From positions 1 through 21,880 of the IMG/VR virus record IMGVR_UViG_3300021378_003361: a DNA stretch of 21,880 nt; one strand, written 5' to 3'. The notes under the pieces were generated by a model, which was not told the origin of the DNA, ran no database searches, and was given only the letters and a program-made list of their open reading frames with translations. The stretch comes from a virus. Below are positions 14,530 to 21,880 of this stretch, one piece after another (positions within the stretch are counted from its first letter, which is position 1; each line of letters starts with the position of its first letter). The position numbers and the translations under genes are program-made.

Positions 14530-14574
14530 ATGATTACCAATATGATATTTACGGAATGTTATGAGAAAATTTAA
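14530..14574 (+). CDS. Putative 14-codon leader ORF overlapping infC
   Basis: ATG at 14530 has the best Shine-Dalgarno of the region (AGGAGA, about 5 nt upstream) and encodes MITNMIFTECYEKI before TAA. It ends inside the first five codons of infC, which itself has only a weak GGA near its ATG. Ribosomes loaded on this ORF could re-initiate on infC, so the short ORF probably controls IF3 synthesis by translational coupling. It may simply be a remnant of a former start. Confidence 0.45.
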   Translation: MITNMIFTECYEKI

Positions 14575-15094
14575 CAAACCGGAACCACGTACACCTATTA
14601 ACTCACAAATAAGATTCAATGAGTTAAGAGTGGTTGACGATCAAGGACAATTAGGTGTTATGAATAAAGCACAGGCAATTAATATTGCTGAAAGTCGTGG
14701 ATTAGATTTAGTAGTAATTACTGAGTCAGCAAAACCACCGGTAGCTAAAATTTTAGATGCTAATAAATACCTCTACGAACAAAAACGGCGTGAAAAAGAA
14801 CAAGCAAAACGTCAGCGTGAAAGTCGTATTGAGGTTAAAGAGATACAATTTCGTCCTGGAATTGGTGATCATGACTTTGAAACAAAATTAAAAAATATCG
14901 ATAAGTTTCTTACCAAAGGCAACAAAGTTAAACTCATGGTGCGTTTTAAAGGTCGAGAAAACGCAAATAAACAAATAGGTTTTGAAATACTTGAACGAGT
15001 ACATGAGTCTTTTACTAATGTTGAATGGGATGCAAAACCTAGCCTAAACGGAAACAGATTGATTGGGATATTGAAAAGAGGTAAGAATGGCTAG
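14561..15094 (+). CDS. infC: Translation initiation factor IF3
   Basis: The 177 residues cover a whole IF3. The N-domain is at 10-80 (INSQIRFNELRVVDDQGQLGVM, ESRGLDLVVI, KPPVAKILDANKYLYEQ), the lysine-rich linker helix follows (KRREKEQAKRQRESRIEVKEIQFRPGIGDHDF), and the C-domain is at 95-175 (FLTKGNKVKLMVRFKGRENANKQIG). IF3 binds the 30S platform, prevents 70S re-association and proofreads start codons. Both domains seem intact, so it could replace or compete with host IF3. The start is ATG 14561, since an in-frame stop lies at 14543. It overlaps the bS21 gene by 8 nt. IF3 is uncommon in phages of ordinary size. Confidence 0.95.
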   Translation: MRKFNKPEPRTPINSQIRFNELRVVDDQGQLGVMNKAQAINIAESRGLDLVVITESAKPPVAKILDANKYLYEQKRREKEQAKRQRESRIEVKEIQFRPGIGDHDFETKLKNIDKFLTKGNKVKLMVRFKGRENANKQIGFEILERVHESFTNVEWDAKPSLNGNRLIGILKRGKNG

Positions 15095-15314
15095 AAGACC
15101 AGAAAAGGTAAACCAAGGCCTTTATGTAGAAGTACACAACAATGATGTTGGTAGAGCTCTACGTAAATTAAAAAAGATGGTGAACAATGAAGGTATCTTA
15201 AAAGATCTTCGTGATAAAGAATACTATGAGAAGCCAAGTCTAAAGCGCAAGAAAGCAAAAGCAGCCGCCCGTAAACGGTGGTTAAAACAACAAGAAAAAA
15301 ATAACAATAGATAG
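15087..15314 (+). CDS. rpsU: Small ribosomal subunit protein bS21
   Basis: These 75 residues match bS21 in length and pattern: VEVHNNDVGRALRKLKKMVNNEGILKDLRDKEYYEKPSLKRKKAKAAARKRW. bS21 sits on the 30S platform beside the anti-Shine-Dalgarno end of 16S rRNA. It is the ribosomal protein most often found in viruses, and viral copies are thought to enter host ribosomes. Here the gene overlaps infC by 8 nt (ATG within the last codons), so both initiation proteins are made together. The Shine-Dalgarno is weak, in keeping with coupling. A strong early promoter follows the stop codon immediately. Confidence 0.95.
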   Translation: MARRPEKVNQGLYVEVHNNDVGRALRKLKKMVNNEGILKDLRDKEYYEKPSLKRKKAKAAARKRWLKQQEKNNNR

Positions 15315-15315
15315 C

Positions 15316-15344
15316 TTGACAATCAGTACCAGATGTATTATATT
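15316..15344 (+). promoter_or_regulatory. Sigma70-type promoter (early)
   Basis: TTGACA (15316-15321), 17 bp, TATATT (15339-15344). It lies just after the bS21 stop and about 190 nt before the Hsp20 ATG, leaving an unusually long leader. Confidence 0.8.
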
Positions 15345-15349
15345 ATGAA

Positions 15350-15536
15350 TATAACAAGAAACGGCACTCAATGCGCTCGGACGTAAAGGCGCCATGATAA
15401 GACATATACAACTATAGACTACGGGTTGCAGCGTAATAAGCACGTGAAGTGCCACGGTAAGCACTTCAACTAATAAATAAATGTGGATGCCAATTATGGG
15501 TCCTCAAATTACATCTTGCTTAAAAGGAGATAAAAG
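15350..15536 (+). other. Long structured leader or small RNA upstream of hsp20
   Basis: This stretch between the early promoter and the Hsp20 ATG holds no ORF I can support. It contains a perfect 7-bp hairpin, GAAGTGC/GCACTTC (15446-15467, 8-nt loop), a GGCGCC palindrome near 15388, and a late box at 15472. AAAAGGAG precedes the hsp20 ATG. It could be a regulatory leader (for example an RNA thermometer for a heat-shock gene) or an independent small RNA; I see no match to a named riboswitch. Confidence 0.4.
15472..15479 (+). promoter_or_regulatory. T4-like late promoter box, hsp20
   Basis: AATAAATA followed by AATGT fits the extended ATAAATA-NN-TGT pattern seen at the three leaderless genes, but here the gene starts 57 nt downstream behind a normal Shine-Dalgarno. 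It gives hsp20 a second, late promoter. Confidence 0.5.
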
Positions 15537-15974
15537 ATGAATAGACTAACTACAATCGACTTGAATAAACTCACCCCTCACAGTGTTGGACTAGAAAGAA
15601 TGTTTAACGACATGTTTAGATATGTTGAACATCCGCAAAACGCTGGATACCCACCATATAATATTGTGCAGGAAGAAGAGCGTTTCCAAATTGAAATGGC
15701 ACTTGCCGGAGTATCTATGGAAGACGTAGATATTGAAGTCGCAGAAGGTGTTTTAACAGTCACGCATGATCCACAATTAGTGGAACACCCAGACACAGTG
15801 CGTTGGGTGCATAAGGGAATAGCACAACGTAAATTTACTCGTAGCTTTACCTTAGCTGATGACGTTATAGTACAAGGTGCAAGAATGGAAAATGGTATGC
15901 TTTATATTGAACTAGAGCGTATTATTCCAGAAGAAAAGAAACCACGTAAAATTAAAATTACGCAAGCAGCTTAA
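15537..15974 (+). CDS. Small heat-shock protein Hsp20 (IbpA-like)
   Basis: The 145-residue protein has a short N-terminal arm typical of phage Hsp20 (RLTTIDLNKLTPHSVGLERMFNDMF), an alpha-crystallin domain at about 40-135 (YNIVQEEERFQIEMALAGVSMEDVDIEV...GVLTVTHD...RKFTRSFTLADDV...GMLYIELERIIP) and a C-terminal tail with KIKI in place of the IxI motif. It is an ATP-independent holdase that keeps unfolding proteins soluble; Hsp20 is common in T4-like cyanophages. GGAG lies 8 nt before the ATG. Both an early and a late promoter lie upstream, suggesting use throughout infection. A strong GC hairpin follows the stop. Confidence 0.93.
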   Translation: MNRLTTIDLNKLTPHSVGLERMFNDMFRYVEHPQNAGYPPYNIVQEEERFQIEMALAGVSMEDVDIEVAEGVLTVTHDPQLVEHPDTVRWVHKGIAQRKFTRSFTLADDVIVQGARMENGMLYIELERIIPEEKKPRKIKITQAA

Positions 15975-15979
15975 CACTT

Positions 15980-16002
15980 GGGGGGCGGTACTGCCGCCCC
16001 TC
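15980..16002 (+). other. GC-rich hairpin between hsp20 and clpS
   Basis: GGGGCGG (15982-15988) and CCGCCCC (15994-16000) form a perfect 7-bp stem with a 5-nt loop, extendable by two pairs at the base. No T-run follows, so it may stabilise the hsp20 mRNA 3' end or attenuate rather than terminate. It is the most GC-rich spot in the window. Confidence 0.6.
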
Positions 16003-16020
16003 TGATCAACAGGATATTAA

Positions 16021-16320
16021 ATGAGTACACAATTAGCAACAGACGAAGTCTTGGATATTGGCTTTGACCTACCAAGGAAGTATAAAGTCATCCTGTATAA
16101 TGATGACCACACTCCTGTTGAATTTGTAATACAATTATTAATTAATTTATTTCATAAAAGTAATAGTGAGGCTGAGGCAATCACTGTTTCTGTACATAAC
16201 GAAGGACAGGGAGTTGCTGGAATTTATCAGTACGAAATTGCTGAACAGAAAGTTTATGAAGCAACTAATATTAGTCGTTCAAACGGCTTCCCGCTTACAT
16301 TAAAGGTAGAAGAAGAATAA
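16021..16320 (+). CDS. clpS: ClpS, N-degron adaptor for the ClpAP protease
   Basis: The 99 residues match ClpS. The N-end substrate pocket motif is present as [11 protein letters not shown] (N27, D28, D29, T31), with H59 in [12 protein letters not shown] equivalent to the E. coli pocket His, and the C-terminal PLTLKVEEE. ClpS delivers proteins with Leu, Phe, Tyr or Trp at the N-terminus to host ClpA and can inhibit other ClpAP substrates. A phage copy could redirect host proteolysis. The N-terminal extension (about 17 residues) that acts on ClpA is present. AGGA precedes the ATG; GMP reductase starts 1 nt after the stop. Confidence 0.93.
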
Positions 16321-16321
16321 T

Positions 16322-17458
16322 ATGAGAATTGAAAATGAAATTTTGTTGGACTACAGTGATGTTCTGATTCGTCCAAAGCGTAGTACTCTTGGGTCACGTA
16401 AAGAAGTTGACCTGGAGCGACAGTTTACATTCTGTCATGGAGGTTTTAAAAACCAAGGCGTCTTACTTGATGATTATGATTGGTCAGGTGTACCAATTAT
16501 TGCAAGTAATATGGACGGTGTTGGTACCATGGAAATGGCAGACCAGTTAGCTACTGGCAAAATAATGACTTGCTTGGTTAAAACTTATAGTGCACAAGAG
16601 CTTATCAGTTATTTTAATGAAGGAATGACTGAACGTACTGAGTATGTTGCTATGAGCATTGGTATTAGAAGTCATGATGAAGCAAAGTTTACTGAAGTAT
16701 ATAATGCAGTTGGTAAAAACTTACAATACGTTTGTATTGATGTTGCTAACGGATACAGTCAACGTTTTGTAGAATTTGTTGCTGATTTTAGAATGCGTTT
16801 TCCACGTGTGGTAATCATTGCAGGTAATGTTGTTACCGCAGATCAAACACAGGAGTTAATCTTAAATGGAGCAGATATTGTTAAAGTTGGTATTGGGCCT
16901 GGCAGTGTTTGTACTACTCGTATACAAACTGGCGTTGGTTACCCTCAGCTTTCTGCTGTTATCGAATGTGCAGACGCCGCTCACGGTCTTGGCGGTCATA
17001 TCATTGCTGATGGTGGCTGTACTTGTCCTGGTGATGTGGCTAAAGCATTTGCTGGTGGTGCTGATTTCGTAATGCTTGGTGGCATGCTTGCTGGGCACGA
17101 TGAAGGCGGCGGCGAAGTGATTGAAAAATTTTATGAAACTAACCAGTTAGAAGATTTACATGGCGAACGTGTAATTGAAAGAAAACAGTTTGTACAGTTT
17201 TACGGTATGAGTAGTGACGCAGCAAACACAAAACATTTTGGTGGTTTAAAAGACTATCGTAGTAGCGAAGGACGTGAAGTACTTGTACCATATCGTGGTG
17301 CTGTTGGTCACACTGTGCAAAATATCTTAGGCGGTGTGCGTAGTACATGTACATACGTTGGTGCAAACACACTAAAGCAACTTAGTAAGTGCACAACATT
17401 CATTCGTGTAAACAACCAGTTTAATCGAACATACGAGTCAACGACAACTAAGATGTAA
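16322..17458 (+). CDS. guaC: GMP reductase
   Basis: This (beta/alpha)8-barrel enzyme of the IMPDH/GMPR family should convert GMP to IMP with NADPH, releasing ammonia. The active-site loop is [11 protein letters not shown] with catalytic C197, followed by [22 protein letters not shown] and [33 protein letters not shown], which match GuaC rather than IMP dehydrogenase; there is no CBS insert. At 378 residues it is slightly longer than E. coli GuaC (about 347). It would let the phage recycle guanine nucleotides from host RNA into the adenine pool, in keeping with an AT-rich genome. It is coupled to clpS. Confidence 0.93.
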
Positions 17459-20483: not shown

Positions 20484-20560
20484 TGGTCGGGGATGCAGGA
20501 TTCGAACCTGCGACCTCTCGCTCCCAAAGCGAGCGCACTACCAGACTGTGCTAATCCCCG
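20484..20560 (-). tRNA. tRNA-Pro (UGG), CCA encoded
   Basis: A canonical 77-nt cloverleaf. The acceptor CGGGGAT/ATCCCCG is perfect, the D-stem GCAC/GTGC, the anticodon stem CTCGC/GCGAG with loop TTTGGGA (anticodon TGG), and the T-stem GCAGG/CCTGC with TTCGAAT. C1-G72 and A73 agree with proline identity. CCA is encoded. Confidence 0.96.
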
Positions 20561-20561
20561 T

Positions 20562-20635
20562 TGGCAGGAGTGGAGGGAGTCGAACCCCCGCTTGCGGTTT
20601 TGGAGACCGCCGTGCTACCATAACACTTCACACCC
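20562..20635 (-). tRNA. tRNA-Trp (CCA), CCA encoded, slightly degenerate
   Basis: The anticodon loop CTCCAAA on stem GCGGT/ACCGC gives anticodon CCA, and the discriminator is G73, as in tryptophan tRNAs. The T-arm has TTCGACT. The acceptor GGGTGTG/CACTCCT has a U-U mismatch and a G-U pair, position 8 is A instead of the nearly universal U, and the variable loop is 4 nt. One base separates it from tRNA-Pro, so both come from one transcript. Confidence 0.88.
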
Positions 20636-20931: not shown

Positions 20932-21032
20932 TGGCTCCAGGGGGAGGATTCGAACCTCCACGGTAAATACTTTGCGAGTTATCTACCACACGATAAACAG
21001 TCGTGCGTGTCTACCAATTTCACCACCCTGGA
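20932..21032 (-). tRNA. Unusual tRNA-Asn (GUU) with long class II variable arm
   Basis: A 101-nt cloverleaf with perfect acceptor TCCAGGG/CCCTGGA, G73 and encoded CCA, D-stem GTG/CAC, anticodon stem CACGA/TCGTG, and T-stem GGAGG/CCTCC with TTCGAAT. The loop CTGTTTA gives anticodon GTT. U1-A72, G73 and GUU match known asparagine identity (E. coli tRNA-Asn also begins TCC and ends GGAGCCA). But the variable region is about 29 nt with an 8-bp stem (GGTAGATA/TATTTACC), as only Leu, Ser or Tyr tRNAs would have, the D-arm looks Leu-like, and position 37 is U rather than a purine. It begins 5 nt after the synthetase-like gene. Confidence 0.85.
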
Positions 21033-21037
21033 TAAGT

Positions 21038-21880
21038 CTATGCAGCTTGAGCAAAACTTCCTTGTTTGTCCAGTGCTGCAATCATTCTTGTCATACCAAT
21101 ACCGCCACCTACTCTTTGGAAGAAGTCAAACTTGAGGAACTCTTCTAGTTCTGCTTCTACACGTTCTTTACCAAATAGTTTGTATAGTAACTCTGCATAA
21201 TCTCCGTCTACAATACTGTGGAATGTATCACGCATCATATCAACATCACAACTACGTTCTGCTGATCCAATAGTTTCCATACCACCTAAGATAACGTCCA
21301 TCTTTTTAGCAGTATTGCCATCATCGTTACGTGCCATATTCCAGAAAGGCGATGTTAGTTCTGGGAAGTCTGTGATCAAACAACTACCAAAGTTTGCTTC
21401 CATTGCTAACTCATGTTGTGCATCCATTTCAGTATCTGCACTTACACCCCAATGCTGTTGCCATTCTCTGTATGTTTTTTCTGTTAGTGGATCAAATCCC
21501 AAGTATTCACATAATTCAATTTCCATTGCTTTAAGATCATCTACACTGCCTGGAAACTCAAACTCAAACATTGGAAAAATAATGTCGTGTCTACCTGGTA
21601 TAGCATTTGGTTCTTGTCTATAGGACGTTGAAACACAAAAAAAGCCCTTACTATCGGGCTTGCTTAATAATTCATGTTCTAACCACATCTGGCCTGTTTG
21701 GGGCAACGGCCAAACCTGGCCGGCATAATTGTACGTTGCTACATTAAATGGATCTTCACATGCGGCAAGTATGCTTAGTCTATTCTGAGTATGGACTTCT
21801 AAAAAGCCTTTGCTCAAAAAAAAGGACCTTAAAAGGCCCACAGTTTCAGTAAATTTTGTTGGATTTATTAGTTGTGTCAT
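21038..21880 (-). CDS. AsnRS-like class II aminoacyl-tRNA synthetase catalytic domain
   Basis: The 280 residues form a class IIb (AspRS/AsnRS) core. Motif 1 region is RSFFLSKGFLEVHTQ (18-32). TGQMWLEHEL (62-71) corresponds to the SGQL segment of AsnRS. Motif 2 is YRQEPN with R88 and E90, then R97-H98 and FPMFEFEF. GGMETIGSAERSCD matches the GGEI-GSxRE segment, and motif 3 is GGGIGMTR (258-265). The OB-fold anticodon-binding domain of AspRS/AsnRS is missing, unless the gene begins beyond the window edge; an ATG sits exactly at 21880, so the true start is open. It may charge the adjacent tRNA, make asparagine (AsnA-like) or modify another molecule (EpmA- or GluQRS-like). Confidence 0.85.
   Translation of the reverse strand: MTQLINPTKFTETVGLLRSFFLSKGFLEVHTQNRLSILAACEDPFNVATYNYAGQVWPLPQTGQMWLEHELLSKPDSKGFFCVSTSYRQEPNAIPGRHDIIFPMFEFEFPGSVDDLKAMEIELCEYLGFDPLTEKTYREWQQHWGVSADTEMDAQHELAMEANFGSCLITDFPELTSPFWNMARNDDGNTAKKMDVILGGMETIGSAERSCDVDMMRDTFHSIVDGDYAELLYKLFGKERVEAELEEFLKFDFFQRVGGGIGMTRMIAALDKQGSFAQAA

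Follow-up and report, generated by a model that had tools for sequence, protein, structure and literature searches.

What would a synthetase-like catalytic core do with a tRNA of asparagine type, but of unusual shape, that is encoded directly behind its own gene? The question is raised by one end of a viral DNA of 21,880 nucleotides (IMG/VR record IMGVR_UViG_3300021378_003361); the whole stretch, here called the window, is the entire public record. An earlier note on this DNA described the enzyme as a catalytic domain resembling asparaginyl-tRNA synthetase (AsnRS) without an anticodon-binding domain, and suggested that the long variable arm of the tRNA could serve as the recognition handle. 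The features are as follows.

21038-21880, minus strand: free-standing AsnRS-like catalytic core of 280 amino acids, family phrog_29758
21033-21037, minus strand: spacer of 5 nt from the stop codon to tRNA nucleotide 1 (4-10 nt in relatives)
20932-21032, minus strand: tRNA of asparagine type and class II shape, CCA encoded (RF00005, cloverleaf, covariation)
20996-20998, minus strand: anticodon GUU (G34 U35 U36) in the loop CUGUUUA (20994-21000), with U37
20960-20988, minus strand: variable region of 29 nt; 8-bp stem of 20980-20987 with 20962-20969, and GCAA in the apical loop (20972-20975)
20932-20935, minus strand: discriminator G73 (20935), read from the sequence and conserved in relatives, and encoded CCA (20932-20934)

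Elsewhere in the window, positions 14561-17458 carry host-like genes for IF-3, ribosomal protein S21, Hsp20, ClpS and an IMP dehydrogenase/GMP reductase-type protein. Two ordinary tRNAs, Pro(UGG) and Trp(CCA), were found by ARAGORN on the same strand at 20484-20635, 300 nt past the odd tRNA.

A free-standing AsnRS-like core

Window ORF analysis gives a complete protein of 280 residues from 21880 to 21038 on the minus strand, with its 5' end coinciding with the window edge at 21880. A truncated reading frame with an OB domain past this edge was ruled out by the end-to-end match to phrog_29758 (residues 1-271 against profile positions 1-266 of 267, E 4e-130) and by the starts of the relatives. 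These begin at the same MTQLI and have in-frame stops a short way upstream, so no OB domain is hidden past 21880. The protein matches PF00152 at residues 13-273 (E 1e-15, 58.1 bits against a gathering score of 25), and the N-terminal OB anticodon-binding domain is absent from both the 280-residue protein and the 267-residue family profile. The description in the earlier note is thus borne out, and the intact upstream OB domain that would have spoken against it was not found.

The protein scores 29.4 bits with the AsnRS model TIGR00457, far under the curated cut-off of 342.6 bits, and 20.3 bits with the archaeal-type asparagine synthetase A model NF005055, below its cut-off of 389 bits. The scores with the aspartyl-tRNA synthetase (AspRS) models are likewise far under their cut-offs. 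With a score below the TIGR00457 cut-off and without an OB domain, the protein is by membership not an AsnRS, and its sequence likeness to AsnRS is remote (about 20% identity).

The fold was predicted with AlphaFold from 31 sequences (mean pLDDT 91.5). AsnRS structures take the top seven places among the PDB matches (Z 27.7-26.3, with 248-252 residues aligned at rmsd 2.2-2.7), ahead of AspRS (Z 26.0), archaeal asparagine synthetase A (23.9) and GenX (23.6); entries within 1 Z unit count as ties, and folds off this ranking are not thereby excluded. The preference for AsnRS over AspRS is therefore slight on fold alone. In the alignment, the pocket motif TGQMWLE corresponds to SGQL..E of AsnRS and not to SPQ.FKQ of AspRS. 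Retained residues include Arg88 and Glu90 of motif 2, the RH pair, Asp195, Glu202, Arg209 and Arg265 of motif 3. The family has traits of its own, namely a near-invariant RLSILAACEDP stretch, Gln in place of the motif 1 Pro, and Thr preceding the motif 3 Arg. From alignment and model, the protein is assigned as a class II D/K/N synthetase catalytic domain with a pocket motif of AsnRS type.

Compared with AsnRS (class IIb), the phage enzyme shares the catalytic fold (Z 27.7 with human AsnRS), the pocket motif, the catalytic residues and a tRNA partner of asparagine type, but it differs in its missing OB domain, remote identity, sub-cut-off score, RLSILAACEDP stretch, motif 1 substitution and class II-shaped tRNA. 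Archaeal asparagine synthetase A and E. coli EpmA/GenX are also class IIb proteins reduced to the core, with a related fold and the lower scores given above. They act on free aspartate and on EF-P, respectively, and are not known to have a linked tRNA.

A selected tRNA linked to the enzyme gene in both directions

The tRNA matches RF00005 at 21032-20935 with 49.4 bits (cut-off 29) and comprises 98 nt plus the encoded CCA. The cloverleaf, read directly, has the anticodon GUU, U1-A72, G73 and U37; its variable region of 29 nt contains an 8-bp stem. It begins 5 nt after the stop codon, and all of this is as previously described from the letters alone. The ARAGORN label Asp(atc) is an artefact of the misplaced long arm. 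The anticodon and G73 form the bacterial asparagine identity set (PMC9976931). The window tRNA has both, but it lacks A37 and the class I shape of a tRNA-Asn, whose variable loop has 4-5 nt. It resembles tRNA-Leu in its body, D arm and long arm, and differs from it by GUU in place of a leucine anticodon, G73 in place of A73, U1-A72 and a longer arm. With a covariance model built from the gene-linked phage tRNAs, the best other match was a tRNA-Leu for both huge phages and for all but one of the 11 cellular genomes.

Unique tRNAs downstream of the relatives' genes numbered 45. All have U1-A72 and G73, and all have GUU; the extraction pattern required GUU, yet no relative had another tRNA at this place. 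Of the 45, 38 carry U37 and the other 7 carry A37. Among 33 long-arm variants, pairing holds in 99.1% of the base-pair cells, and both sides have changed in 15 of the 28 pairs (shuffled mean 8.1; none of 500 shuffles reached 15). Pairing is complete (100%) in the acceptor, D, anticodon and T stems and reaches 97% in the variable-arm stem, with compensatory changes in every one of these stems, including the variable stem for which such a comparison had been suggested. This covariation rules out a spurious tRNA or pseudogene, and the tRNA structure is under selection.

The variable region ranges from 13 to 33 nt, mostly 28-31, and is always enlarged. Across 36 distinct arms the mean uninterrupted helix is 8.0 bp, compared with 3.2 bp after shuffling. 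GCAA occupies the loop in 28 of 28 long arms; in the window (20962-20975) and its relatives, the GCAA loop and a UAUUUA 3' strand are kept while the 5' strand varies. Two loci (L029 and L030; loci are numbered with an L) have identical tRNA bodies and proteins 95% identical, with arms of 28 and 15 nt. Since near-identical pairs exchange a 28-nt for a 15-nt arm, the arm is probably not read by sequence. The proposed handle therefore survives only in part: an enlarged arm is always present, whereas a sequence-specific handle is disfavoured by the range of lengths and by this swap. A constantly enlarged arm of free length and sequence fits better with an element of shape, or a block to host enzymes, than with a read-out motif.

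At least 599 relatives of the enzyme were found in IMG/VR, and linkage was scored on the best 80 of them. The tRNA follows the stop codon by 4-10 nt in 78 of these 80 viral loci; one of the 78 (L023) lies at a contig end where only the 5' half of the tRNA is visible. The sole exceptions among the 80, L028 and L043, have no tRNA after the gene, and they share a different hairpin-bearing sequence 3' of the stop codon. For the reverse direction, IMG/VR was scanned with D-loop and anticodon-arm bases only, in a pattern that demands U37 and covers the U37 forms. Among the at least 115 loci listed, 105 have the gene upstream, 8 have no more than 131 nt of upstream contig, and 2 are not tRNAs. The gene thus lies upstream in 105 of 105 listed tRNA loci with sufficient upstream sequence, and no tRNA without the gene appeared among the listed matches to the U37-requiring pattern. 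This reverse linkage rules out that the tRNA just happens to belong to a cluster of phage tRNAs. Both checks that could have counted against the reading of the earlier note turned out in its favour: no OB domain lies upstream, and the tRNA, with its arm enlarged in every case, stands beside the gene in 78 of the 80 viral loci. As the tRNA is almost always directly 3' of the gene, the enzyme and tRNA very likely function as one unit.

The same pair is present in the cultured Prochlorococcus phages P-SSM2, P-SSM5 and P-SSM7, where the genes are annotated as 'tRNA ligase' and 'tRNA-Asn'. The ligase belongs to phrog_29758 (cyanophage cluster T4-GC 194), is 65-68% identical to the window protein, and is followed by the same kind of tRNA. 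T4-GC 194 is listed as a sporadic cyanophage gene (PMC3037559, Table 3), and the passages found on it mention neither the pairing nor the odd tRNA shape. In the P-SSM2 record AY939844.2 (L083), the tRNA-Asn annotation at 164094-164179 is misplaced by about 2 kb; the true position is 162083-162168, right after the 'tRNA ligase', as correctly annotated in GU071092.1. At another locus (L092, 4859-4890), only both acceptor strands and GCCA are left after the gene (TCCGGGG-T-CCCCCGGAGCCA); the body of the tRNA may have been precisely lost, or the assembly may be at fault.

Relatives without the tRNA and the pyrimidine context

The core is also encoded by Patescibacteria, endosymbionts, Dependentiae, Chlamydia, Pasteurella atlantica and further organisms. 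In the cellular and huge-phage genomes searched, no tRNA of this kind was found next to the gene or elsewhere, and the best matches to the tRNA model were tRNA-Leu, tRNA-Ser or tRNA-Tyr. Two huge phages (L085, 735 kb; L086, 484 kb) carry the core at 43-48% identity without the special tRNA, like the cellular members. The enzyme fold can therefore do without the tRNA. The active-site residues and the RLSILAACEDP stretch are common to phage and cellular members. In a quick tree, 22 tRNA-linked members form one supported clade, with L096 and L131 placed apart and a long outgroup branch; the history of the pairing may involve one or two origins, or losses. Replacement of a housekeeping AsnRS in cells is inconsistent with the carriers, which include genomes with a full AsnRS and genomes with GatB. 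The distribution of AsnB, checked for a role of the family as asparagine synthetase in cells, is mixed among carriers.

Genes of pyrD, pyrE or pyrF type lie within 4 kb of the enzyme gene at about 18 of about 75 cellular loci; such loci include L094, L103, L111, L117, L119, L122, L128, L135, L136, L142, L150, L161, L162 and L164. Among 15 carrier genomes, carB scored above the cut-off in 1, pyrB in 1 and pyrF in 14, compared with all three genes in 14 of 14 control genomes. Incomplete MAGs weaken the single absences but not the trend. Two patescibacterial clusters (L101, 1008-4837; L119, 60-4807) combine the enzyme gene with pyrE and an ArgH-like lyase gene, L101 also with an amidohydrolase gene and L119 also with pyrD and pyrF; they possibly encode an unusual pyrimidine pathway. 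A missing pyrimidine step may be concealed near the cellular relatives.

On the phage side, two contigs that have the tRNA (L087 and L096) carry a gene resembling dihydroorotate dehydrogenase (PyrD) nearby, the L096 contig also a PyrF-like gene, and the phages of L017 and L018 have a PyrD-like gene together with a phosphoribosyltransferase gene. Neither a PyrD-like nor a PyrF-like match was found in the window, in P-SSM2 or P-SSM7, or in the majority of the phage contigs searched, which are mostly fragments.

Proposed charging of the tRNA and alternative readings

We lean towards the reading that the enzyme charges the adjacent tRNA, probably with asparagine; this explains most simply why an AsnRS-type core is followed by a tRNA of asparagine type. 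In this model, marine phages, T4-like cyanophages included, would carry a two-gene cassette whose small enzyme, an AsnRS-type class II core without an OB domain, would use ATP to activate an amino acid, most probably asparagine, and load it onto the 3' terminus of the dedicated tRNA encoded downstream. The tRNA would present the bacterial asparagine determinants (GUU and G73, plus U1-A72) on a class II body of leucine type. G73 is expected to work against leucylation, and the large arm to impede host class IIb enzymes, which would leave the phage with a private supply of asparaginyl-tRNA. Because G73 on a leucine body shifts identity toward serine (PMC9976931), serylation by the host is a risk that the pair would have to avoid. 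Use in ordinary decoding is the least certain step, since the common U37 excludes the t6A37 of ordinary tRNA-Asn. Against charging stand the active-site residues shared with tRNA-less relatives, the pyrimidine context, U37 in 38 of 45 tRNAs and the remote identity to AsnRS. The closest parallel in manner of working would be PylRS with tRNA-Pyl, where a synthetase is likewise dedicated to one tRNA of odd shape, and some PylRS lack the arm-binding domain (PMC7609411). That pair differs in belonging to another subclass, in its small variable arm, in reading UAG and in charging pyrrolysine.

The serious rival, which we consider unlikely overall, is a function linked to pyrimidines that may or may not involve the tRNA. 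The family would then activate asparagine or aspartate within pyrimidine synthesis, for example in a bypass to dihydroorotate upstream of PyrD, and the phage tRNA would be a cofactor, donor or regulator instead of a decoder. The pyrD, pyrE and pyrF-type neighbours, the carriers that mostly lack a recognisable carB and pyrB while keeping pyrF, the pyrimidine genes accompanying L087, L096 and L017/L018, and the family-specific active-site stretch common to phage and tRNA-less cellular members all argue for it. However, it offers no reason for a near-obligate asparagine-type tRNA, most phage contigs tested, the window among them, have no PyrD-like or PyrF-like match, and absence is weak evidence in carriers of which many are reduced genomes or incomplete MAGs. 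A more specific version, which we regard as rather doubtful, is that the family is an overlooked asparagine-activating enzyme that replaces CarAB-PyrB-PyrC in reduced bacteria, e.g., through adenylation of N-carboxy-asparagine, allowing the side-chain amide to close the dihydroorotate ring. In marine phages this active site would have become coupled to a private tRNA-Asn of class II shape, for a second, translational use or for a tRNA-coupled metabolic step. The ring chemistry is our proposal; the observations behind it are the genomic associations.

The remaining alternatives concern what is loaded on the tRNA, by which enzyme and for what end. Many marine bacteria use an indirect route in which aspartate is loaded and then amidated. 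An enzyme of non-discriminating type could likewise load aspartate, to be converted to asparagine on the tRNA by the host GatCAB. AspRS is indeed the next best fold, but the pocket motif is of AsnRS type (TGQMWLE and the RH pair), and we regard this route as improbable. Phages replace attacked tRNAs, and the pair might restore asparagine decoding after nuclease cleavage or shut-off of the normal tRNA-Asn, with the altered loop and arm evading the nuclease. The anticodon loop does depart from that of normal tRNA-Asn in most members, through U37, but a general look at the genome context gave nothing tying the pair to defence. As an explanation of its own we consider counter-defence very improbable; it may equally be the selective reason behind charging. 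Finally, the host SerRS, which reads a long arm together with G73, could charge the tRNA while the adjacent enzyme acts on something else, given that A73 to G73 can turn a leucine body to serine identity (PMC9976931; PMC7609411). This reading leaves unexplained the invariant GUU and U1-A72 beside an AsnRS-type enzyme and the linkage in both directions, and we give it the least credence of all.

The earlier note knew of no described phage system of this type. In the literature searched, which covers few subscription journals, we found neither the pair nor a class II-shaped tRNA-Asn described, and no pyrimidine link of the enzyme family. Thus the pair appears undescribed there, but its two genes had already been annotated separately in cyanophages. 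If charging of the tRNA is true, the pair would be a natural, very small class IIb synthetase without an anticodon-binding domain acting on a class II-shaped tRNA-Asn, and it would provide a direct test of how asparagine identity is read as well as a candidate orthogonal pair. Since hundreds of ocean virus contigs and cultured phages have the pair, this can be tested now. The pyrimidine association asks in turn whether AsnRS-like cores hide a missing step of nucleotide synthesis in Patescibacteria and endosymbionts.
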